Below are positions 1,338-11,312 of a stretch of DNA of 37,518 nt, one piece after another; positions within the stretch are counted from its first letter, which is position 1, and each line of letters opens with the position of its first letter. The stretch is from Streptomyces rochei (lineage in GTDB: Bacteria > Actinomycetota > Actinomycetes > Streptomycetales > Streptomycetaceae): positions 1 to 37,518 of the forward strand of contig MUMD01000186.1 in NCBI GenBank assembly GCA_002155895.1, in the 5' to 3' direction. Below the pieces are notes generated by a model, which made no database searches, had not been told where the DNA came from, and worked only from the letters and a program-made list of their open reading frames with translations. The position numbers and the translations under genes are program-made.

Positions 1338-1412
1338 TTGGGCTGCGCGGGAACGGCGGGACACCCACACTGGTGCGGTCCCCTCCCGACGATCCTCTCG
1401 AGGAGCCCCTGC

Positions 1413-2474
1413 GTGCAGGCAGCCGTCACCGTCACTCCCGCCCGACTCCCGGAACTGCTGCTCGGCCTCGCCACCGTGCGGCCGGTCTTCCTGTGGGGCG
1501 CACCCGGCATCGGCAAGTCCTCCCTGGTGAGGAACTTCGCCGACTCGCTGGGCCTGGAGTGCGTGAGCCTGCTCGGCACCCAGCTCGCGCCCGAGGACCT
1601 GATCGGCGTCCCGCAGATCCGGGACGGCCGGTCGGTGTTCTGCCCGCCGGAGTCCATCGCCCGCGACGAGCCGTACTGCCTGTTCCTGGACGAGCTGAAC
1701 GCGGCCACCCCCGACGTGCAGAAGGCGTTCTACTCCCTCATCCTCGACCGCCGCATCGGCAGCTACGAACTTCCCAAGGGCTCCATCGTCATCGGCGCCG
1801 GCAACCGCGCCACCGACAACGCCCTGGCCCGCCCCCTCGCCTCCGCGCTGGTCAACCGCCTCACCCACGTCCACCTGGACGCCTCCGCCCACGACTGGCT
1901 CACCTGGGCCGGCGAGAACGGCATCCACCCCTGGATCACCGACCACCTCACCGACCGCCCCGACCACCTGTGGTCCAAGCCGCCCAAGACCGAGGAGCCG
2001 TTCTCCACCCCGCGCTCCTGGCACATGCTCTCCGACGCCCTGCACTCCTTCGGCCGCGACCTCGACGAGGACACTCTCAAGGTCCTCGCCCACGGCACGC
2101 TCACCCCCGCCCACGCCACCGCCTTCTGCGGCTACGTCAAGATCGTGCGCAGCCGGTTCGGCATCGAGGCGATCCTCAAGGGCGAGGCCCGCTGGCCCAG
2201 CCGCCTCCAGGACCGCGACCTGCTCTACTACCTCGCCGAGTCCTTCCGCGGCCGGCTGGTCAAGGAACTGCCCGCGAGCAAGGAGCACATGTCGGCGAAC
2301 GGCCGCCAGACCGCCTACCGCGCCAAGTCGCTGCTGGTGCAGCTCGCCGAGATCTCCGTGGAGGTCGCCCAGAGCGTCATCGCCTCCGACGCCGACGGCA
2401 ACCCGGTGCTGCCCGCCTGGTTCCTGGTCGAGGCCGCCCGCGACATGCCCCGGCTGGTCGAGGCCCGCCGATGA
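1413..2474 (+). CDS. MoxR-type AAA+ ATPase
   Basis: A 353-residue cytoplasmic AAA+ ATPase of the MoxR type, a class that remodels partner proteins together with a vWA-domain protein. Visible motifs: Walker A GAPGIGKS at about residues 29-36, Walker B CLFLDEL at 89-95 (D93, E94), and sensor-1 GAGNRATDNA with N131. I chose GTG 1413 because AGGAG lies at 1401-1405, seven bases upstream; the in-frame TTG at 1338 would add 25 non-conserved residues and has no ribosome binding site. The stop overlaps the start of the next gene in the arrangement ATGA (2471-2474), so the two are translationally coupled and probably made in a fixed ratio. The function is inferred from this pairing: ATP-driven loading or activation of the downstream metallopeptidase/vWA protein. 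The actual client is unknown. Confidence 0.85.
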   Translation: MQAAVTVTPARLPELLLGLATVRPVFLWGAPGIGKSSLVRNFADSLGLECVSLLGTQLAPEDLIGVPQIRDGRSVFCPPESIARDEPYCLFLDELNAATPDVQKAFYSLILDRRIGSYELPKGSIVIGAGNRATDNALARPLASALVNRLTHVHLDASAHDWLTWAGENGIHPWITDHLTDRPDHLWSKPPKTEEPFSTPRSWHMLSDALHSFGRDLDEDTLKVLAHGTLTPAHATAFCGYVKIVRSRFGIEAILKGEARWPSRLQDRDLLYYLAESFRGRLVKELPASKEHMSANGRQTAYRAKSLLVQLAEISVEVAQSVIASDADGNPVLPAWFLVEAARDMPRLVEARR

Positions 2475-4279
2475 GCCGCACCCGCAGGCAGAAGCAGCAG
2501 CAGAAGAAGAAGGACCCGGCGGCGGAGGACTGCGCCGAGGGCGTCCGGCTGGTGTGGGCCAACCCCGCCCTGGCGGCGATGGAGGTCAAGCTGTGCCGTG
2601 AGGAGGAGTGCCGGGTCGCGCCCCGTCAGGGACTCGTCCGCGTCAGCTCCAACGGCCGGGTCCACCTCAGTCACACCCGTCACGCCGAGCCCGCCGAGTG
2701 GGCCTGGGCCATCGCCCACGCCCTGATCCACCTCGGCTTCGGCCACGTACCCGCCGCGACCGGCGAGCGCCCCCAGCCCGACCGCTACGACCTCGCCGCC
2801 CGCTGCGTCGTCGTCAACCGCTTCCTGGCGACCTTCCCGGTCGGCCGCACCCCGGACCACCTGCCGCCGACGTACCCCGACGGCGACGAGGAACGCATCG
2901 CCGCCGCCTGGCGCCGCGAGGGCGGCATCCCGGCCGCCTACGAGCACTGCGGCACCGCGGGCGCCGAACCCGACCAGCTCCTGGTGCCCTGGGACGGATA
3001 CAACGGCCAGGCCCCCGACTGGCAGCTGGCCTTCGCCCACGCCCTGACCCGCACCATGTCCACCGCCCTCGACCTCGCGGGCGGCCGGCGCGACGACATG
3101 CTGGGCGGCCCCACCCGACTGCACCCCTGGCAGCAGGCCCTGAGCTGGTTCGTCTCCTCCTACCCGCTCCTCGGCGGCATCGCGGCCGGCATCACCCTCG
3201 TCGCCGACGCCGAACTCGCCCGCGCCCACGGCATCTCCGTCGCCGCCGTCGACGCCGAGGCCGGCGAGATCTACGTCAACCCCCTGCGCCGGTACGACGA
3301 CGAGGAATGGCGCTTCATCCTCGCCCACGAGATGCTGCACGCCGCCCTGCGTCACGGCGACCGCCGCGGCACCCGCGACCCCTACCTCTTCAACGTCGCC
3401 TGCGACTACGTGATCAACGGCTGGCTGGTCGAGATGCGGGTCGGCACCATGCCCGAGGGCCTGTTGCACGACCCGGCCCTCGCCGGCCTGTCCGCCGAGG
3501 AGGTCTACGACCGCATCGCCGGCGACCTGCGCCGCATGCGCCGCCTGTCCACCCTGCGCGGCAAGGGCGTCGGCGACATCCTCGGCGGCCCGCTCGGCGC
3601 GCCCCGCGACCACGTCGACCTCGACGGCTTCTACCGGCGCGGCCTGACCCAGGGCCTGGACCTGCACCAGCGGCAGGAACGCGGCTACCTGCCCGGCGGC
3701 CTGGTCGAGGAGATCCGCGCCCTCAGCCACCCGCCGCTGCCCTGGGACGCCCGCCTCGCCCGCTGGTTCGACGAGTTCGTGCCCCGCCCCGAGCCCGTAC
3801 GCTCGTACGCGCGCCCCTCCCGGCGCCAGGCCGCCACCCCGGACATCCCGCGCGCCGGACGGTACTTCCCGCCCGAGGAGATCGCCCGCTGCACCTTCGG
3901 CGTCGTCCTGGACACCTCCGGCTCCATGGACCGCACCCTGCTCGGCAAGGCGCTCGGCGCCATCGCCTCCTACGCCGAGGCCCGCGACGTGCCCGCCGCC
4001 CGCGTCGTCTTCTGCGACGCGGCACCGCACGACGCCGGCTACCTGCCGGTGACGGAGATCGCGGGCCGGGTCCGGGTGCACGGTCGCGGCGGCACCGTCC
4101 TCCAGCCCGGCGTCGACCTGCTGCTGCGCGCCGACGACTTCCCGCCCACCGCGCCGGTCCTCGTCATCACCGACGGCTGGTGCGACGTGCTGCGGGTGCG
4201 GCGCGAGCACGCCTACCTGATCCCGAAGGGCGCACGGCTGCCGTTCACCGCCCGGGGACCGGTCTTCCGGGTGAGCTGA
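2471..4279 (+). CDS. metallopeptidase/vWA protein (DUF2201-like), partner of the MoxR ATPase
   Basis: A 602-residue soluble protein starting at the ATG that overlaps the ATPase stop. The N-terminus is very basic and Gln/Lys-rich (residues 1-14). A zinc-peptidase motif lies at H286-E287-x2-H290 with a further H295, followed by C311-D312-Y313. A von Willebrand A domain begins near 474 with the MIDAS motif D481-T-S-G-S. An earlier stretch, H83-A-L-I-H87 with H92 and then D104-x-Y106...C112, repeats the peptidase motif at identical His spacing but with Ala in place of the catalytic Glu, so the protein looks internally duplicated with a dead first copy. This domain combination matches proteins annotated as DUF2201 putative metallopeptidases beside MoxR ATPases. 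Substrate and biological role are unknown. A hairpin at 4301-4328 may end the operon. Confidence 0.8.
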   Translation: MSRTRRQKQQQKKKDPAAEDCAEGVRLVWANPALAAMEVKLCREEECRVAPRQGLVRVSSNGRVHLSHTRHAEPAEWAWAIAHALIHLGFGHVPAATGERPQPDRYDLAARCVVVNRFLATFPVGRTPDHLPPTYPDGDEERIAAAWRREGGIPAAYEHCGTAGAEPDQLLVPWDGYNGQAPDWQLAFAHALTRTMSTALDLAGGRRDDMLGGPTRLHPWQQALSWFVSSYPLLGGIAAGITLVADAELARAHGISVAAVDAEAGEIYVNPLRRYDDEEWRFILAHEMLHAALRHGDRRGTRDPYLFNVACDYVINGWLVEMRVGTMPEGLLHDPALAGLSAEEVYDRIAGDLRRMRRLSTLRGKGVGDILGGPLGAPRDHVDLDGFYRRGLTQGLDLHQRQERGYLPGGLVEEIRALSHPPLPWDARLARWFDEFVPRPEPVRSYARPSRRQAATPDIPRAGRYFPPEEIARCTFGVVLDTSGSMDRTLLGKALGAIASYAEARDVPAARVVFCDAAPHDAGYLPVTEIAGRVRVHGRGGTVLQPGVDLLLRADDFPPTAPVLVITDGWCDVLRVRREHAYLIPKGARLPFTARGPVFRVS

Positions 4280-4300
4280 GCCGGAGTGTGATCGGATGGG

Positions 4301-4328
4301 GGTGGGAACCCGGTCGCGGGCTCCCACC
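4301..4328 (+). terminator. hairpin after the ATPase/metallopeptidase operon
   Basis: A 12-bp stem with one mismatch (4301-4312 pairs with 4317-4328, loop GTCG) begins 21 bases after the stop at 4279. No T-tract follows, as is common in Streptomyces. It could instead shape the 5' leader of the OsmC gene that starts at 4365. Confidence 0.45.
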
Positions 4329-4364
4329 GCCCCAGTACAGCAAGAGATTTCGAGAGGAACCGCC

Positions 4365-4790
4365 GTGGCAACCACGCGCTCCGCACACACCGTCTGGGAA
4401 GGCAACCTGCTCGAGGGCAACGGTGTCGTCACCTTCGACTCGTCCGGCATCGGCGAGCAGCCGGTGTCGTGGCCGTCGCGCGCCGAGCAGGCGAACGGGA
4501 AGACCAGCCCCGAGGAGCTGATCGCCGCCGCCCACTCCAGCTGCTTCTCCATGGCGCTGTCGCACGGCCTGGCCGGCGCCGGCACCCCGCCCACCAAGCT
4601 CACCACCTCCGCCGACGTCACCTTCCAGCCGGGTGAGGGCATCACGGGCATCCACCTCACCGTGGAGGGCACCGTCCCCGGCCTCGACAACGACGCGTTC
4701 GTCGCCGCCGCCGAGGACGCCAAGAAGAACTGCCCGGTCAGCCAGGCCCTGACCGGCACGACCATCACCCTCACGGCCAAGCTGGCCTAG
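4365..4790 (+). CDS. OsmC/Ohr-superfamily peroxidase
   Basis: A 141-residue cytoplasmic OsmC-type thiol peroxidase, which reduces organic hydroperoxides. The two redox cysteines are C60 in AAHSSCFSMAL and C123 in KKNCPVSQAL, the family positions; length and the ELIAAAHSSC context fit OsmC rather than Ohr. I start at GTG 4365 because GAGAGGA lies at 4352-4358 with good spacing and the protein then begins MATTRSAHTVWEG like relatives. An in-frame ATG at 4296 would run through the hairpin at 4301-4328 and has no ribosome binding site. The gene converges on narI with only 12 bases between the stop codons. Confidence 0.9.
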   Translation: MATTRSAHTVWEGNLLEGNGVVTFDSSGIGEQPVSWPSRAEQANGKTSPEELIAAAHSSCFSMALSHGLAGAGTPPTKLTTSADVTFQPGEGITGIHLTVEGTVPGLDNDAFVAAAEDAKKNCPVSQALTGTTITLTAKLA

Positions 4791-4802: not shown

Positions 4803-5525
4803 CTAGGAGCCCGCGCGCTCCCAGCCCCGCCGGTCCGGGCGCGGCCCCAGCTGCCTGGGGTCGCGCGACCGGTACACCACGTACGGGCGGGTCAGGTACT
4901 GCACCGGCGCGCTGAACATGTGCACCAGCCGGGTGTACGGCACCAGGGCGATCAGCAGCATCCCCACCACCGCGTGCACCTGGTACAGCACCGGGACTCC
5001 CACCATCAGCTCCGTCTTCGGCTGGAGGGTGAACAGGCTGCGCGACCAGGGCGCGATGGTGTGCCGGTAGTCGTAGCCGGTGCCGGAGGAGTGCGCCAGC
5101 TTGGCGACCATGCCGAGGACGATCGCCGCAAGCAGGAAGACGTACATGACCTTGTCGTTGGCGGTCGTCGCCCGGAAGACGGGCGCGTTGGTGCGCCGGC
5201 GGTAGATCAGCATGAGGATGCCCGCGACGGCCAGCACACCGGCCGCCGTGCCGCCGTACAGCGACAGCAGGTGGTAGGCGTGCTCGCTCACGCCCAGCGC
5301 GTCCGTCCACGACTCGGGAACGAACAGCCCGACGAGATGGCCGACGAGCACGAACAGGATGCCGTAGTGGAACACCGGCGAGGCGATGTTCAGCAGCTTC
5401 GACTCGTACACCTGCGAGGAGCGCGTCGTCCAGCCGAACCGGTCGTAGCGGTGCCGCCAGACCAGGCCCGCGACCAGCAGGGCGAAGGCGGCGTAGGGCA
5501 GCACGCCCCAGAGGAAGACGGTCAC
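4803..5525 (-). CDS. narI: respiratory nitrate reductase, gamma (cytochrome b) subunit
   Basis: The 240-residue di-heme membrane anchor that oxidises menaquinol and passes electrons to NarH. Five hydrophobic segments are visible. Candidate heme ligands are H53 and H63 near the start, and H184 and H202 near the end; their spacings of 10 and 18 match the E. coli pairs 56/66 and 187/205. The start GTG (5525-5523) overlaps the narJ stop in a GTGA arrangement, so it is translationally coupled; longer in-frame extensions overlap narJ and look unlike NarI. The C-terminal tail is Arg/Pro-rich and presumably cytoplasmic. It is the last gene of the operon. Confidence 0.95.
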   Translation of the reverse strand: MTVFLWGVLPYAAFALLVAGLVWRHRYDRFGWTTRSSQVYESKLLNIASPVFHYGILFVLVGHLVGLFVPESWTDALGVSEHAYHLLSLYGGTAAGVLAVAGILMLIYRRRTNAPVFRATTANDKVMYVFLLAAIVLGMVAKLAHSSGTGYDYRHTIAPWSRSLFTLQPKTELMVGVPVLYQVHAVVGMLLIALVPYTRLVHMFSAPVQYLTRPYVVYRSRDPRQLGPRPDRRGWERAGS

Positions 5526-6016
5526 GGGCGGGCTCCGGTGGGTGCGGGCGGCAGGGTGGCGCACACCGCGTCCAGGACGCACGCGTAGGGCGTCCCGAAG
5601 GCGGTGAGCCGGGAGCGGAGCTGGTCCAGGGCGTCGCGGTGCTCGGTGAGCATGCCGATGTTCCCGGTGCGGGAGGCGAACTCCAGCACGGCCGGCAGGA
5701 AGTCGGGCAGTTCCTCGTCGGTGAACTCCAGCCCGTGCGCCCGGTACAGCTCCTTGAAGCGGACCAGCGACATGCCGCGGTTGCGGGTGTCGCCGTCGGT
5801 CCACCAGCTCAGATAGAGGCTGTGCCGGTTCTTGAAGTCGAAGACCTCCACGTAGTGCGCCTGGAGCGCGCCCTGTTCGGTCGCCGCCGCGTGGTCGGTG
5901 AAGCCCCGCAGTTGCGGAGCGGCCTCCCGCAGCAGCGGCAGCCGGGCGCGGAAGTCGTCGTCGGGATACGTCAGACAGAGCGCCGCCGCCTGGTACAGCA
6001 GCTCGAAGCCGGGCAT
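5522..6016 (-). CDS. narJ: nitrate reductase molybdenum cofactor assembly chaperone
   Basis: A 164-residue NarJ (TorD-superfamily) chaperone that binds NarG and holds it until the molybdenum cofactor and Fe-S clusters are in place; it is not part of the final enzyme. It starts MPGFELLYQAAALCLTYPDD, typical for the family, and contains the segments SLYLSWWTDGD and DFLPAVLEFA. The ATG is at 6016. A GAGGGAGG run overlapping the end of narH provides the ribosome binding site. The stop at 5522-5524 overlaps the narI start, and narH ends five bases before the narJ ATG. Length is somewhat shorter than E. coli NarJ (about 236) but usual for actinobacteria. Confidence 0.93.
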   Translation of the reverse strand: MPGFELLYQAAALCLTYPDDDFRARLPLLREAAPQLRGFTDHAAATEQGALQAHYVEVFDFKNRHSLYLSWWTDGDTRNRGMSLVRFKELYRAHGLEFTDEELPDFLPAVLEFASRTGNIGMLTEHRDALDQLRSRLTAFGTPYACVLDAVCATLPPAPTGARP

Positions 6017-6021
6017 GGGAA

Positions 6022-7617
6022 TCAGACCTCCCTCTCGTCGTCCGCCGTCTGCCGCCTGCGCAGGATGTGGAAGTTCTCCACCGGCACCAGCGGCAGCCGC
6101 CTGCGCCCCGAGTCCTGGCCGAACGGCCCGTCCCCGCCCATCCCCGGCCCGCCGTCGGTGTCCAGGCTGCACGTGTCCGGCAGCGCCGACGCCTCCAGCC
6201 GGTGCGCGTCGCCGACGGCCGCCGTCGGGATCACGTACCGCTCCTCGTACTTGGCGATCGCCAGCAGCCGGTACATGTCCTCGACCTCCTGCGGGCTCAT
6301 GCCGACACCCGCGCAGACGGCCGGGTCCGGTTCCTCGCCGAGGTTGATCGCCCGCATGTGGGCCCGCATCGCCGCCAGCTTCTCCAGCGACGCCCGTACC
6401 GGGCCGGTGTCGCCCGCCGTGAACACCTCCGCCAGGTACTCCAGTGGGATGCGGAGCGTGTCGATGGCCCCGAAGAGGTTGTCGGCGTCCTCGCCGTCGT
6501 GCCCGGTCTCCGTCAGGGCGTCCACCACCGGTGACAGCGGCGGGATGTACCAGACCATCGGCATGGTGCGGTACTCCGGGTGCAGGGGCAGGGCGACACG
6601 GTACCTGCTCACCAGCGCGTGCACGGGGGAGCGCCGGGCCGCCTCGATCCAGTCGAACGGAATGCCCGCCTTCTCCGCCTCCCGCCGCACCTCGGGGTCC
6701 TCCGGGTCGAGGAAGACGCCCAACTGTGCCGCGTACAGGTCGTGCTCGTCCGGCGTGGAGGCCGCCTCGGTCACCTTGTCGGCGTCGTACAGCACCACAC
6801 CCAGGTACCTCAGCCGGCCGACGCAGGTCTCCGAGCAGACCGTCGGCTGCCCGATCTCGATGCGCGGATAGCAGAAGGTGCACTTCTCGGCCTTGCCGGT
6901 GCGGTGGTTGAAGTACACCTTCTTGTACGGGCATCCGGTCACGCACATCCGCCAGCCCCGGCAGCGGTCCTGGTCGACCAGGACGATGCCGTCCTCCGAG
7001 CGCTTGTACATCGCCCCGGACGGGCACGACGCCACGCACGACGGGTTGAGGCAGTGCTCGCAGATGCGCGGCAGGTAGAACATGAACGTCTCTTCGTACG
7101 CGAACCGCACCTTCTCCGAGGCCCGCTGCCGCGTCCGTTCCACCATCGGGTCGAGGTCGCCGTAGGCGGGGGCGCCGCCCAGGTCGTCGTCCCAGTTCGA
7201 GGACCAGCCGATCTTCATCGGTTTGCCGTCGAGCTGCGAGACGGGCCGGGCGACCGGGTAGTCGGAGCCGAGCGGGGCGTCGGTGAGGTTCTTGTAGTCG
7301 TAGGTCCAGGGCTCGTAGTAGTCCTTGATCTCCGGGAGCTTCGGGTTGGAGAAGATCCCGGCGAGCTTCCTGATCCGGCCGCCCGCCTTGAGCTTGAGCG
7401 CGCCCCGCCGGTTCAGCTCCCAGCCGCCCTTCCACCTCTCCTGGTCCTCGTAGCGGCGCGGGTAGCCCTGACCGGGGCGGGTCTCCACGTTGTTGAACCA
7501 GACGTACTCCATGCCCCGACGGTTGGTCCACGCCTGCTTGCAGGTGACCGAGCAGGTGTGGCAGCCGATGCACTTGTCGAGGTTCATGACCATCGCGACC
7601 TGGGCCATCACTCGCAT
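6022..7617 (-). CDS. narH: respiratory nitrate reductase, beta (Fe-S) subunit
   Basis: A 531-residue cytoplasmic-face electron-transfer subunit carrying four Fe-S clusters between NarI hemes and NarG. The first cysteine group is C16-x2-C19-x2-C22-x3-C26 in KCIGCHTCSVTCKQAW. Further groups are CEHCLNPSC, the 3Fe-4S type CRGWRMCVTGC in which a Trp replaces one Cys as in E. coli NarH, and CTFC...CSETC. The start ATG at 7617 shares one base with the narG TGA stop (TGATG), so it is coupled to narG; a second ATG nine bases on is possible but family members begin MRVMAQ. Length matches E. coli NarH (512). Confidence 0.96.
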   Translation of the reverse strand: MRVMAQVAMVMNLDKCIGCHTCSVTCKQAWTNRRGMEYVWFNNVETRPGQGYPRRYEDQERWKGGWELNRRGALKLKAGGRIRKLAGIFSNPKLPEIKDYYEPWTYDYKNLTDAPLGSDYPVARPVSQLDGKPMKIGWSSNWDDDLGGAPAYGDLDPMVERTRQRASEKVRFAYEETFMFYLPRICEHCLNPSCVASCPSGAMYKRSEDGIVLVDQDRCRGWRMCVTGCPYKKVYFNHRTGKAEKCTFCYPRIEIGQPTVCSETCVGRLRYLGVVLYDADKVTEAASTPDEHDLYAAQLGVFLDPEDPEVRREAEKAGIPFDWIEAARRSPVHALVSRYRVALPLHPEYRTMPMVWYIPPLSPVVDALTETGHDGEDADNLFGAIDTLRIPLEYLAEVFTAGDTGPVRASLEKLAAMRAHMRAINLGEEPDPAVCAGVGMSPQEVEDMYRLLAIAKYEERYVIPTAAVGDAHRLEASALPDTCSLDTDGGPGMGGDGPFGQDSGRRRLPLVPVENFHILRRRQTADDEREV

Positions 7618-10600
7618 CAGTACTCGACCTCCTGGCCGCGGCGGCGGATCACCGTCACCTCGTCGCGCTGGTTGCCCGTCGGGCCCAGGTAGTTGAACGC
7701 CCACGACAACTGGGCGTAGCCGCCGATGAGATGGCTCGGTTTGAGGAGCAGGCGGGTGAGCGAGTTGTGGATGCCGCCGCGCTTCCCGGTCGTCTCCGCG
7801 AGGGGCACGTTGACCGTGCGCTCCTGCGCGTGGTGCATGTAGACCGTGCCCGGTGGCATCCGGTGCGAGACGATCGCGCGGGCCACCACCACGCCGTTGC
7901 GGTTGATCGCCTCGATCCAGTCGTCGTCGCCGACGCCGATCGCCTCCGCGTCCCGCGCCGACATCCAGATGGTCTGGCCGCCCCTCGACAGGGCCAGCAT
8001 GAACAGGTTGTCCTGGTACTCGGAGTGGATGGACCACTTGTTGTGCGGGGTCAGATAGCGGACCGTCACCTCACGGTGCCCGTCCGGGCCGAGCCGCGGT
8101 TCGCCGAACAGCCGGCTCATGTCCAGCGGCGGCCGGTACACGGGCAGCGCCTCGCCCAGCTCGTGCATCCAGTCGTGGTCCAGGAAGAAGTGCTGCCGTC
8201 CGGTGAGGGTGTGCCAGGGCTTGAGATGCTCGGTGTTGAGCGTGAACGCCGTGTACCGCCGCCCGCCTGCCTCGCTGCCCGACCACTCCGGGGAGGTGAT
8301 CACCGGCACGGGCGCCGCCTGGGTGTCCGCGTAGGTGACGCGCTTGCCCTCGTGCTCGGCGGCGAGGTGGGCCATCTCCTGACCGGTCTTCGCCTCCAGG
8401 GTGTGGAAGCCCTGGGTGGCCAGGCGCCCGTTGGTGGTGCCGGAGAGGGCCAGGATGGTGTTGGCCGCCTTCACCGCCGTGTCCAGCGCCGGGCGGCCGT
8501 CGGCCGGGCCGCCGCGCACCGCGCCGTTCAGCTCCCGCAGCCGCGCCACCTCCTCGTCCGGCCTCAGCGTGATCCCCTTCGCGGGCAGGCCCTTGGCCTC
8601 CACCAGCGGGCCCAGCGCCGCGAACTTCGCGCCGATCGCCGTGTAGTCGCGCTCCACGACGACGAGGTTCGGCATGGTCTTCCCGGGCTCCGGATCGCAC
8701 TCCCCGCGCCGCCAGTCCCGTACCACCCCGCCCGGCTGGGCGATCTCGCCGGGGGTGTCGTGCTGGAGCGGCGCCGCCACGAGGTCCTTGCGTACCCCGA
8801 GGTGGCCGGCGGCCAGCTCGCTCAGCTTCTCCGCGAGCACCTTGAACGTGTCGAAGTCGGTGCGGGTCTGCCACGGCGGGCTCACGGCCGGGGAGAAGGC
8901 GTGCACATAGGGGTGCATGTCCGTGCTGGACAGGTCGTGCTTCTCATACCAGGTCGCGGCGGGCAGCACCACGTCGGAGAGCAGCGTGGACGAGGTGTGC
9001 CGGAAGTCCAGCGACAGCAGCAGATCGAGCTTGCCCTCGGGCGCCTCCTCGTGCCAGACCACGTCCCGGGGCCGCTCGCCCGGCGCGGCCTCCTCGGCGC
9101 GCAGCGAGGAGTGGGTGCCCAGCAGGTGCTTGGTGAAGTACTCGGCGCCCTTCGCCGACGAACCCAGCAGATTGGCCCGCCACAGCGTCACGATCCGCGG
9201 CCAGTTCTCCGGCGCGTCCGGGTCCTCGCAGGCGAACTTCAGGGTTCCCGCGCGCAGCTCGGCCACCGCGTTCGCCACCGGGTCGCCGAAGGTCTCGCCC
9301 AGCTCCAGGGGGTTGCGGTCGAAGGTCGGGTACGACGGCATCCACCCCGTGCGCGCCGACAGCGCCAGGCAGTCCGCGCCCGTCATCCCCTCGAACCTGC
9401 CCTCGCCCAGCGGCGAGGCCAGCACGTCCGCGCCGAACCGGTCGTAGCGGAACTGGTCGGTGTTCAGGTACCAGTACGCGGTGCCGATCATCTGGCGCGG
9501 GGGCCGCGACCAGTCCGAGGCGGCGGCCAGCGACGCCCAGCCGGTCACCGGACGGCACTTCTCCTGGCCCACGTAGTGCGCCCAGCCGCCGCCGTTGCGG
9601 CCCTGGCAGCCGGTGAGCTGGAGCAGGGCGAGGAACGCCCGGTAGATCGTCTCGGAGTGGAACCAGTGGTTGGTGCCCGCACCCATCAGGATCATGCAGC
9701 GTCCCCGGGAGCGCTCGGCGGTCCGCGCGAACTCCCGGGCGATCCGCACACAGGCCGCCGCCGGCACCGAGGTGTGCGTCTCCTGCCACGCCGGGGTGCC
9801 GGGCGCCTCCGCGTCCTCGTACGACGCCGGCCACCGGCCCGGCACCCCGGGCCGGGCCACCCCGTACTGGGCGAGCAGCAGGTCGAACACCGTGGTCACC
9901 AGCGGCCCGGTCGCCCCGCCCAGCCGGGTCGCCGGCACTCCCCGCCGGACCACCTCGCCGCGGCCCTGCGCGTGCGCGCCGCCCTCGGTGTCGAAGCGGG
10001 GGAGCAGCACCTCCACGCCCGACGCCATCTCGTGGCCGTGCAGGCTCAGCCGGGGGCGCACGTCGCCCAGGTCGAGGTTCCACCTGCCCTGGTCGGCCTC
10101 GTTCCAGCGGAAGCCCAGCGAGCCGTTGGGCACGACCGCACGACCCGTCGTGTCGTCCAGTACCACCGTCTTCCAGGCGGCGTCCGCACCCTCCTGCCCC
10201 AGGTCGGCCGCGCGCAGGAACTTCGCCGGCACGTACCCGCCGTCCCGCTCGGTCAGCGTCACCAGGAACGGCAGGTCGGTGAAGCGGCGTACGTAGTCGT
10301 CGAAGAACGGGGTCTCCCGGTCGACGAAGAACTCCTTGAGCACCACGTGCCCCATCGCCAGGGCCAGCGCGGCGTCCGTGCCCGGGTGCGGGTGCAGCCA
10401 CTGGTCGGCGAACTTGGTGTTGTCGGCGTAGTCGGGGGAGACGACCACGACCTTCTGGCCCCGGTAGCGGGCCTCGGCCATCCAGTGCGCGTCCGGCGTG
10501 CGGGTCACCGGGACGTTCGACCCCCACATGATCAGGTACGCCGCGTCCCACCAGTCACCCGACTCCGGCACGTCCGTCTGGTCGCCGAAGACCTGCGGGG

Positions 10601-11312
10601 ACGCCACCGGCAGGTCGGCGTACCAGTCGTAGAACGACAGCATCGGGGCGCCGATGAGGGAGTGGAAGCGGGCGCCCGCCGCGTGCGACACCATCGACAT
10701 CGCCGGGATGGGGGAGAAGCCCGCGATGCGGTCCGGGCCCTGGGTGCGGATGGTGTGCACATGGGCCGCGGCGACCATCTCGACCGCCTCGTCCCAGCTC
10801 GCCCGCACCAGACCGCCCTTGCCGCGGGCCCGCTGGTAGCGCCGCCGCCGCTCGGGGTCGCCCTGGATGTCGGCCCAGGCCAGCACCGGGTCCGTCAGCC
10901 GGGCCTTCGCCTCCCGGTACATCTCCAGCAGCACCCCGCGCACATACGGGTAGCGCACCCGGGTCGGCGAGTACGTGTACCAGGAGAACGCCGCCCCCCT
11001 CGGGCAGCCGCGCGGCTCGTACTCGGGGCGGTCCGGGCCCACCGACGGATAGTCCGTCGCCTGGGTCTCCCAGGTGATGATGCCGTCCTTGACGAACACG
11101 TTCCAGCGGCACGACCCCGTGCAGTTCACCCCGTGCGTGGAGGTGACGACCTTGTCGTGGCTCCACCGGTCCCGGTAGAACGCGTCCGACTCCCGGCCCC
11201 CGACCAGTCCGATGCTGTGCAGGTCGGGGGCGGCGGTGCCGGGCCGGAAGAACCGCCCCGCCCGCAGCAGTGCCGCGCCCGGCTCGGTGGGCGGTGTCCG
11301 CGTGTCGGTCAC
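7617..11312 (-). CDS. narG: respiratory nitrate reductase, alpha (molybdenum) subunit
   Basis: The 1231-residue catalytic subunit that reduces nitrate to nitrite at a bis-MGD molybdenum site. The FS0 cluster ligands are H60-x3-C64-x3-C68-x34-C103, the same spacing as E. coli H49/C53/C57/C92. The predicted molybdenum ligand is D233 in FYDWYADLP, equal to E. coli D222 after the same 11-residue offset. No Tat signal is present, in keeping with a cytoplasm-facing NarGHI. The start is GTG 11312 with AGGGAGAG just upstream. A TAGGTT -10 candidate and an inverted repeat lie in the 104-base gap to the upstream gene. No narK transporter or two-component sensor is encoded in this window. By neighbourhood it looks like the nar1 type of S. 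coelicolor, which is associated with spores; that parallel is from memory. Confidence 0.97.
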   Translation of the reverse strand: MTDTRTPPTEPGAALLRAGRFFRPGTAAPDLHSIGLVGGRESDAFYRDRWSHDKVVTSTHGVNCTGSCRWNVFVKDGIITWETQATDYPSVGPDRPEYEPRGCPRGAAFSWYTYSPTRVRYPYVRGVLLEMYREAKARLTDPVLAWADIQGDPERRRRYQRARGKGGLVRASWDEAVEMVAAAHVHTIRTQGPDRIAGFSPIPAMSMVSHAAGARFHSLIGAPMLSFYDWYADLPVASPQVFGDQTDVPESGDWWDAAYLIMWGSNVPVTRTPDAHWMAEARYRGQKVVVVSPDYADNTKFADQWLHPHPGTDAALALAMGHVVLKEFFVDRETPFFDDYVRRFTDLPFLVTLTERDGGYVPAKFLRAADLGQEGADAAWKTVVLDDTTGRAVVPNGSLGFRWNEADQGRWNLDLGDVRPRLSLHGHEMASGVEVLLPRFDTEGGAHAQGRGEVVRRGVPATRLGGATGPLVTTVFDLLLAQYGVARPGVPGRWPASYEDAEAPGTPAWQETHTSVPAAACVRIAREFARTAERSRGRCMILMGAGTNHWFHSETIYRAFLALLQLTGCQGRNGGGWAHYVGQEKCRPVTGWASLAAASDWSRPPRQMIGTAYWYLNTDQFRYDRFGADVLASPLGEGRFEGMTGADCLALSARTGWMPSYPTFDRNPLELGETFGDPVANAVAELRAGTLKFACEDPDAPENWPRIVTLWRANLLGSSAKGAEYFTKHLLGTHSSLRAEEAAPGERPRDVVWHEEAPEGKLDLLLSLDFRHTSSTLLSDVVLPAATWYEKHDLSSTDMHPYVHAFSPAVSPPWQTRTDFDTFKVLAEKLSELAAGHLGVRKDLVAAPLQHDTPGEIAQPGGVVRDWRRGECDPEPGKTMPNLVVVERDYTAIGAKFAALGPLVEAKGLPAKGITLRPDEEVARLRELNGAVRGGPADGRPALDTAVKAANTILALSGTTNGRLATQGFHTLEAKTGQEMAHLAAEHEGKRVTYADTQAAPVPVITSPEWSGSEAGGRRYTAFTLNTEHLKPWHTLTGRQHFFLDHDWMHELGEALPVYRPPLDMSRLFGEPRLGPDGHREVTVRYLTPHNKWSIHSEYQDNLFMLALSRGGQTIWMSARDAEAIGVGDDDWIEAINRNGVVVARAIVSHRMPPGTVYMHHAQERTVNVPLAETTGKRGGIHNSLTRLLLKPSHLIGGYAQLSWAFNYLGPTGNQRDEVTVIRRRGQEVEY

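Follow-up and report, generated by a model that had tools for sequence, protein, structure and literature searches.

A Glu-less first copy that probably retains a metal site in a tandem DUF2201_N-type protein encoded beside a MoxR ATPase in Streptomyces rochei

Introduction

MoxR-type AAA+ proteins and their von Willebrand factor A (vWA) partners remodel targets and insert metals, by a mechanism that the passages on these pairs call poorly understood (PMC13036017). For group 2.2 jumbo phages, the passages on that group describe a MoxR protein together with a vWA protein bearing an N-terminal metallopeptidase, proposed to aid virion assembly and processing (PMC7824862). In the fused M16A and M16C peptidases, one half is described as a pseudopeptidase on which the entire enzyme critically depends; MPP-alpha, whose zinc motif has been lost, helps to form the clamshell and binds substrate (PMC11266112). 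Here, we analyzed a 37,518-nucleotide stretch of Streptomyces rochei DNA (contig MUMD01000186.1 of assembly GCA_002155895.1, positions 1 to 37,518, forward strand; "the window"), which encodes, next to a MoxR-type ATPase, a 602-residue protein in which two DUF2201_N-type domains precede a vWA-like domain.

The original prediction for this protein was an internally duplicated metallopeptidase fold with a dead first copy, which may have turned to substrate recognition or to a structural role, all coupled to an AAA+ motor. The duplication, the retention of the Glu in one copy and its loss from the other, and the AAA+ neighbor all stood; the Ala that replaces the Glu was not fixed, and the proposed pairing of two Cys residues did not hold. 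We propose that the first copy is probably peptidase-dead but not metal-dead and, by analogy with known inactive peptidase halves, a pseudopeptidase partner of its twin.

Results

The gene for the 602-residue protein lies at 2471..4279 (+ strand, ATG start), and the nearest named relatives of its product are from Streptomyces. The first copy (residues 15-206; 2513..3088, +), which lacks the Glu but keeps the His triad, was recognized by AlphaFold2 (AF2) modeling, BFVD matches, hhalign, shuffling, and conservation; the second (residues 212-440; 3104..3790, +), with a complete catalytic-type set, was recognized by Pfam DUF2201_N. Local alignment of residues 1-210 with residues 211-420 scored 74, and none of 2000 shuffles scored as high (mean, 31.9; standard deviation, 5.0; maximum, 62). 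The halves of relative L006, which is 53% identical, scored 60 when compared in the same way (shuffled, 30.1 ± 4.8; 0/1000 as high). Profiles were drawn from an 86-row alignment consisting of the window protein, the 80 of 437 relatives that make up the neighbor loci set (79 titled Streptomyces and 1 "Actinobacteria bacterium OV320"), and 5 others, so that most rows come from one genus and are not independent. Its two halves matched each other by hhalign (E 9.6e-7, probability 91%; with tighter limits, E 1.8e-7, 94%), compared to E values of 0.35 and 0.2 when either half was matched to the vWA part as a control. BLASTP of half against half gave an E of 8e-6, and, in 6 loci of 4 genomes, a hidden Markov model (HMM) of the first copy also picked up the second copy that follows it in the protein (E values, 3e-8 to 3e-5). 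Self-BLASTP of the whole protein returned the trivial match only, and the HMM search printed no second-copy match for L006 or L105. Because the shuffles never reached the observed score and the two halves matched by hhalign at this E value, the resemblance is beyond chance; on these comparisons, the predicted duplication within the protein is almost certainly real.

Two further repeat signals were dropped. A third copy near residues 183-193 (DWQLAFAHAL), paired with the second by BLASTP, amounted to 10 residues at E 1.8, and an hhalign signal for residues 140-225 was an artefact that came solely from 11 residues shared with other profiles through the chosen limits.

Residue counts unbiased by motif come from whole-protein alignments, namely, the 86-row set and a motif-blind set of 18 divergent rows (the window, L006, L142-L146, L155-L160, L163-L165, L167, and L168). 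Two rows are common to both sets, giving 102 rows that cover Actinomycetota, Cyanobacteriota, and a gut contig. L166 was left out of the divergent alignments and of the tree described below because its second copy is without HExxH and its N-terminal part did not align. All 15 residues named in the original prediction were correct (H83, A84, H87, H92, D104, Y106, and C112; H286, E287, H290, H295, D303, Y305, C311, and D312). In the second copy, H286, E287, H290, and H295 of the motif HEMLHAALRH (H286-E287-x2-H290-x4-H295; 3326..3355, +, by codon positions) and the residues N308, D312, and N316 were invariant in 86/86 rows, and the full pattern HExxHxxxxH ... N-x3-D-x3-N was kept in 18/18 divergent rows, in agreement with the proposal that this unit keeps its catalytic residues (D312, within N308-x3-D312-x3-N316, is encoded at 3404..3406, +). 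Seventeen single-copy relatives, picked by HExxH and a loose N/D pattern, share H(+9), N308, D312, and N316 with the second copy. The pattern is probably the metal and catalytic set of the family, judging from this conservation; in zincins, such residues serve as zinc ligands and general base.

The first copy retains one part of this set and has lost another. Its motif, HALIHLGFGH (H83-x3-H87-x4-H92; 2717..2746, +, by codon positions), carries A84 in place of the Glu. The three His residues were unchanged in 102/102 rows, and a Glu at position 84 was found in none of them. Whether Ala is fixed at this position had been put forward as a check; the residue varied (A 68, G 15, C 13, L 5, N 1 overall; A 62, G 15, C 9 in the 86 rows; A 7, L 5, C 5, N 1 in the 18). 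Among the 86 rows, H83, H87, H92, D104, C112, and V115 were each present in all. Among the 18 divergent rows, only 8/192 first-copy columns were invariant (G24, W77, H83, H87, H92, G125, G152, and A203), compared to 58/234 in the second copy and 51/162 in the vWA part. The probability that all three His residues fall among these 8 columns by chance is 4.8e-5 if columns are exchangeable, which they are not fully. These data suggest that the first copy very likely lacks zincin-type peptidase activity and that it likely still binds metal; the description of it as "dead" therefore fits catalysis but not the metal site, since the three His were never lost in the rows examined. Two further residues of the first copy, C42 and C47 (2594-2596 and 2609-2611), were invariant in 81/81 first-copy rows, although C42 is seemingly not kept in L006; a second metal or a disulfide is possible at these positions.

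The original prediction had also aligned D104 and Y106 ... C112 with D303 and Y305 ... C311, with D312 deleted from the first copy. The residues are as described, but the pairing of C112 with C311 was not upheld. The helix that follows the motif aligns without a gap at an offset of 200, so that A110 corresponds to A310, R111 to C311, C112 to D312, and N116 to N316. This register is clear in the cyanobacterial and gut rows, as in a cyanobacterial first copy, WNAACNYFIAKFL, set against its own second copy, WNVACDYVINSWL. BLASTP of the window protein alone places the gap where the original prediction did, pairing C112 with C311; we set that pairing aside because the gap would fall inside a helix and because the divergent rows decide otherwise. 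On the divergent-row alignment, C112 (2804..2806, +) is taken to replace D312 rather than to match C311. Position 112 in the 18 rows was C in 13, D in 3, and N in 2; position 116 was N in 10, D in 5, A in 2, and T in 1; and position 108 was mixed. For the register comparison and for the tree, first copies were picked by a pattern demanding three His and no Glu, whereas HExxH was the criterion for second copies and for single copies, with the loose N/D pattern added for the latter. Counts from those analyses therefore hold partly by construction.

The second copy passed Pfam DUF2201_N (PF13203) with 82.5 bits (cut-off, 23.2; best stretch, residues 220-349), and a search of the source genome recovered it at 3131-3835 with 84.4 bits. 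The window first copy alone (residues 2-220) had no Pfam match, the first 200 residues of the protein returned no family from Pfam (E up to 1) or NCBIfam, and the whole protein had no NCBIfam match at E up to 1. Among 12 divergent first copies searched alone, L168 passed the DUF2201_N cut-off (27.0 bits), three fell below it (L164, 20.6; L165, 18.1; L160, 13.5 bits), and 8/12 had no match; for the Streptomyces-type first copies, 4/81 matched, with a best E of 0.063.

A template-free AF2 model of the first copy, built from 81 rows holding first copies only, was confident (mean predicted local distance difference test score [pLDDT], 92.8; predicted TM-score [pTM], 0.90). It comprises one helix, strands at 40-42, 56-59, and 63-66, the motif helix at 74-89, and a second helix at 105-121. 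We compared this model by Foldseek with the predicted viral structures of BFVD. The first-ranked match was an unnamed protein (E 7.2e-4, the sole match below 0.001), followed by a "VWA-like domain-containing protein" of Klebsiella phage FBKp27 (probability, 1.00; TMq, 0.60; E 1.3e-3) and then by an uncharacterised Zuri protein; a 153-residue "Putative metallopeptidase domain-containing protein" of Shigella phage pSb-1 ranked sixth (probability, 0.99; TMt, 0.59; E 0.039), and SprT, IrrE, and M48 proteins ranked lower, at E values of at least 0.27. These TM-scores are moderate, the matched part of each target was not reported, and the DUF2201 identity of the matches is by name. In the full-length model, helices 277-293 and 304-321 of the second copy follow the order and offsets seen in the first, at low to middling confidence. 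The modeling thus points to a first copy that shares the fold of DUF2201-type proteins. Sequence searches of solved structures gave weak matches only over the second copy (an M48 peptidase and MJ1213; E 0.089 and 0.19-0.20), one match for residues 15-51 (E 1.3), and no match for a profile of the first copy; Foldseek of the whole-protein AF2 model against the PDB gave a best E of 0.86, with none at 0.001.

Directly upstream lies the gene for the MoxR-type AAA+ ATPase (1338..2474, +; Pfam AAA_5, 41.5 bits; cut-off, 22). Its open reading frame begins with TTG at 1338; the true start is uncertain, and GTG at 1413 is another candidate. The Walker A motif, GAPGIGKS, was read from the sequence at 1497 (+), and the MoxR stop codon overlaps the ATG of the 602-residue protein (ATGA, 2471-2474). 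The prediction of an AAA+ motor beside the vWA protein was borne out widely: a MoxR gene adjoins in 80/80 neighbor loci, in 11/11 other loci (including the aberrant L166), and in L168. Comparison of 10 divergent loci (7-18 kb each) found MoxR and the double-domain protein to be the sole families present in all 10; the next gene clusters, in 9 and 8 of the 10, were opposite-strand frames of these same two genes, and the rest occurred in fewer. Because no third gene family reaches all 10 loci, we describe the pair as a module of two genes with no constant third member in the loci compared.

An osmC gene lies downstream at 4296-4790 (+), and the reading frames at 4803-11312 (−) were taken for narI, narH/J, and narG (named by eye, without a family search). 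A link between the module and these genes was set aside as synteny: osmC was found in 80/80 neighbor loci but 0/11 of the others and narI in 33/80 and 0/11, where the 11 loci had only about 4 kb of flank.

The vWA-like part (residues 475-570; 3893..4180, +) was assigned from conservation and from a match to Pfam DUF2201 (PF09967, VWA-like) over residues 477-567 that fell under the cut-off (20.5 versus 26.4 bits). Relatives fell on both sides of that cut-off (L163, 33.4; L006, 27.9; and L166, 35.1 bits over it; L164, 25.9; and L168, 25.4 bits under it). Five residues of the metal ion-dependent adhesion site (MIDAS) type, D481, S483, S485, T542, and D568, were kept in 86/86 and 18/18 rows. The anti-phage defense models of PADLOC returned 0 families for the 602-residue protein (E up to 0.1), and MoxR drew 3 weak matches, the best of them at E 0.013. 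PHROGs phrog_1314 matched residues 259-571, spanning metallopeptidase and vWA regions, at E 1.2e-40 under the name "HNH endonuclease." Phage records including NC_023581, NC_023719, and NC_023556 carry that name for such proteins, which looks like a propagated misannotation.

We then considered where the doubled form arose and how far it has spread. In a tree of 53 domain sequences over 73 columns, all 18 first copies formed one clade (100/99), and both copies stood apart from 17 single-copy domains (99/95); the columns are few, long branches meet, the root is arbitrary, and the second copies did not form one clade. The tree fits a single duplication within this family, with the Glu apparently lost before the known members split. 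The first copy was present in 18/18 aligned divergent rows, and none of the single-copy relatives' loci that were searched with the first-copy HMM gave a match.

Of 296 genomes sampled evenly across the phylum, 10 had any match to the 602-residue protein and 21 a match to the DUF2201_N family; within the order, 86 of 197 genomes matched, some by fragments or the vWA part only. Double proteins were found in the neighbor loci and other genomes of the order, in a second family of that order (6 matching genomes, 5 of which were taken further), and in two more families of the class, where near full-length matches came from 6 genomes, in two of them as two pieces of one frame. In another class of the phylum, 1/24 genomes (G253) encoded a double protein. 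Plasmids of Streptomyces (75.6% identity), Miltoncostaea oceani (47.2%), and the cyanobacteria Sphaerospermopsis kisseleviana (46.5%) and Nostoc sp. UHCC 0870 (45.3%) carry it as well, as does the gut contig L168 (MT835968.1; 43.9%), deposited as "UNVERIFIED: Bacteriophage sp." The flanks of L168 look bacterial, with transketolase halves, an FGGY kinase, and four metallophosphoesterase-type genes around the MoxR pair. A query with the first 205 residues returned 4 plasmid records and 1 phage record, and none of 241 pattern matches in viral contigs was a relative. In these draws, the double form is thus frequent within its order without being universal there, and it is scattered outside the order. 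Several genomes of the genus show the gene in pieces or with an internal stop (G407:C1, G396:C1, G471:C54, G358:C135, G475:C1, and G393:C5), from either decay or sequencing error.

Discussion

On balance, we interpret the window protein as a tandem DUF2201_N zincin-like duplication with a vWA-like domain that works with the MoxR of the overlapping upstream gene. The second copy would be a zinc peptidase, and the first a metal-holding pseudopeptidase lobe packed against it; by analogy, we lean slightly toward the first copy being the partner lobe of the second. The vWA domain may dock on a MoxR hexamer, whose ATP hydrolysis would remodel the protein or its target so that the second copy can cut. 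The first copy might help to hold or position the target or lend stability to the active lobe, a role played in fused M16 peptidases by the inactive half. Because its three His are kept, whereas MPP-alpha lacks the zinc motif, a metal at the first copy probably matters, be it as a stabilizing element, as a binding point for part of a peptide, or in some new role.

Several observations weigh against this interpretation. We found no literature report of peptidase activity for DUF2201_N. The first-copy residues that face N308, D312, and N316 vary, so its function may be eroding, and it evolves fastest (dN/dS, the ratio of nonsynonymous to synonymous change, of ~0.44, compared to 0.32 for the second copy and 0.10 for the vWA part; rough values from simple counting over 21 of 81 rows). 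The Pfam DUF2201_N cut-off was passed by just 1/12 divergent and 0/81 Streptomyces-type first copies. Foldseek of the first-copy model against the PDB gave no significant match (best E 0.48), and the fold assignment of this copy therefore rests on BFVD names, on Pfam in one divergent row, and on sequence. The full-length AF2 model had a mean pLDDT of 56 and was poor outside the first copy, with values for ten-residue blocks of 29-78 in the second copy and 25-47 in the vWA part. Finally, L166, on a plasmid of Deinococcus sp. QL22, has E and L where its second copy should have H286 and E287. That protein (761 residues; coding sequence, 6777-9062) lies beside a MoxR gene and keeps H290, H295, N308, and D312; its remaining copy is possibly dead too. 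A TerD-family gene lies near this locus.

An unlikely but still credible alternative gives the metal site of the first copy a structural purpose only: the His triad and C112 (or D/N) would hold a zinc that stabilizes the N-terminal domain, and this domain would serve as a scaffold or as a contact for MoxR or vWA, with no role toward substrate. Such a site would account for three His that stay invariant while most of the domain drifts (8/192 columns) and for the C112 found in 86/86 rows, but residue 112 is D or N in 5/18 divergent rows, and the present data do not separate a scaffold from a substrate-binding lobe.

Somewhat more doubtful is the idea that the first copy has its own chemistry or cargo, as a metal carrier for a client or as a Glu-independent hydrolase like YbeY. 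The YbeY motif, HGxLHLxGYDH, is an HxxxH-type triad without Glu, and the first-copy pattern HxLLHLGFGH resembles it, with the spacing of the third His one off; we regard this as a lead only. The absence of Glu beside three invariant His would suit such a role, and insertion of metals by MoxR/vWA pairs has a described example in NorQD (PMC13036017). However, the 4 Pfam families with a match (E up to 10) in at least one of the 81 first copies did not include YbeY, no YbeY structure was among the 50 PDB fold matches listed, and no metalloenzyme gene was common to all 10 loci compared. If it were true, the protein would be a two-center machine on one AAA+ motor, one center cutting and the other holding metal (HxxxHxxxxH plus C/D/N).

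That the first copy is a decaying, functionless remnant of the duplication, as its faster evolution, its lost Glu, the drift at the three facing positions, and the disruption of the entire gene in some Streptomyces genomes might suggest, is very improbable given a His triad invariant in 102/102 rows over deep divergence, a confident fold prediction, and a first copy present in all 18 divergent rows.

Returning to a pseudopeptidase partner as the preferred interpretation, the parts of the window protein are ordinary, a known family and a known motor. The doubled architecture is conserved, and our search of the literature (titles and abstract starts) did not find a doubled DUF2201 protein described. 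With the DUF2201 family (PF13203 and PF09967 beside a MoxR ATPase), it shares the second copy, the vWA part, and the MoxR neighbor, and single-copy members, chosen by HExxH, share HExxHxxxxH ... N-x3-D-x3-N; the window protein differs in its extra N-terminal DUF2201_N-type copy without Glu. The source genome (7.68 Mb across 808 contigs) encodes one double protein and, from a different contig, a single-copy DUF2201_N protein, a natural comparison for the role of the pseudopeptidase half. Single-copy relatives annotated N4 gp25-like also occur in the N4-like phages Presley (Acinetobacter, L169) and EcP1 (Enterobacter, L175), with an ATPase or gp24-like gene directly upstream; N4 gp24/gp25 may be a MoxR/metallopeptidase-vWA pair.

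Among described systems, the vWA protein of group 2.2 jumbo phages is portrayed with one metallopeptidase domain (PMC7824862); here there are two, one of them Glu-less, mostly on bacterial chromosomes and plasmids. Adjacent MoxR AAA+ and vWA genes are a feature shared with NorQ/NorD and other such pairs, but NorQ/NorD act in metal insertion into nitric oxide reductase, and the passages on them mention no peptidase domain (PMC13036017). Ternary MoxR-vWA conflict systems, as described in part, have the same MoxR-vWA core and include inactive peptidase domains among their effectors (PMC7159879); in our case, no third gene is present in all 10 loci, and the inactive domain duplicates the active one. 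A further parallel lies in M16A/M16C and MPP, which combine homologous active and inactive halves, in one chain in M16A/C (PMC11266112). The M16 motif is unrelated (HxxEH), MPP-alpha has lost the zinc motif whereas the His triad is kept here, and the M16 passages mention no AAA+ partner, unlike the MoxR of the window protein (PMC11266112). One sub-branch of MoxR/vWA machines carries a putative peptidase, and here that domain is doubled, offering a testable case of what appears to be a pseudopeptidase that has kept its metal site as part of an AAA+ machine.

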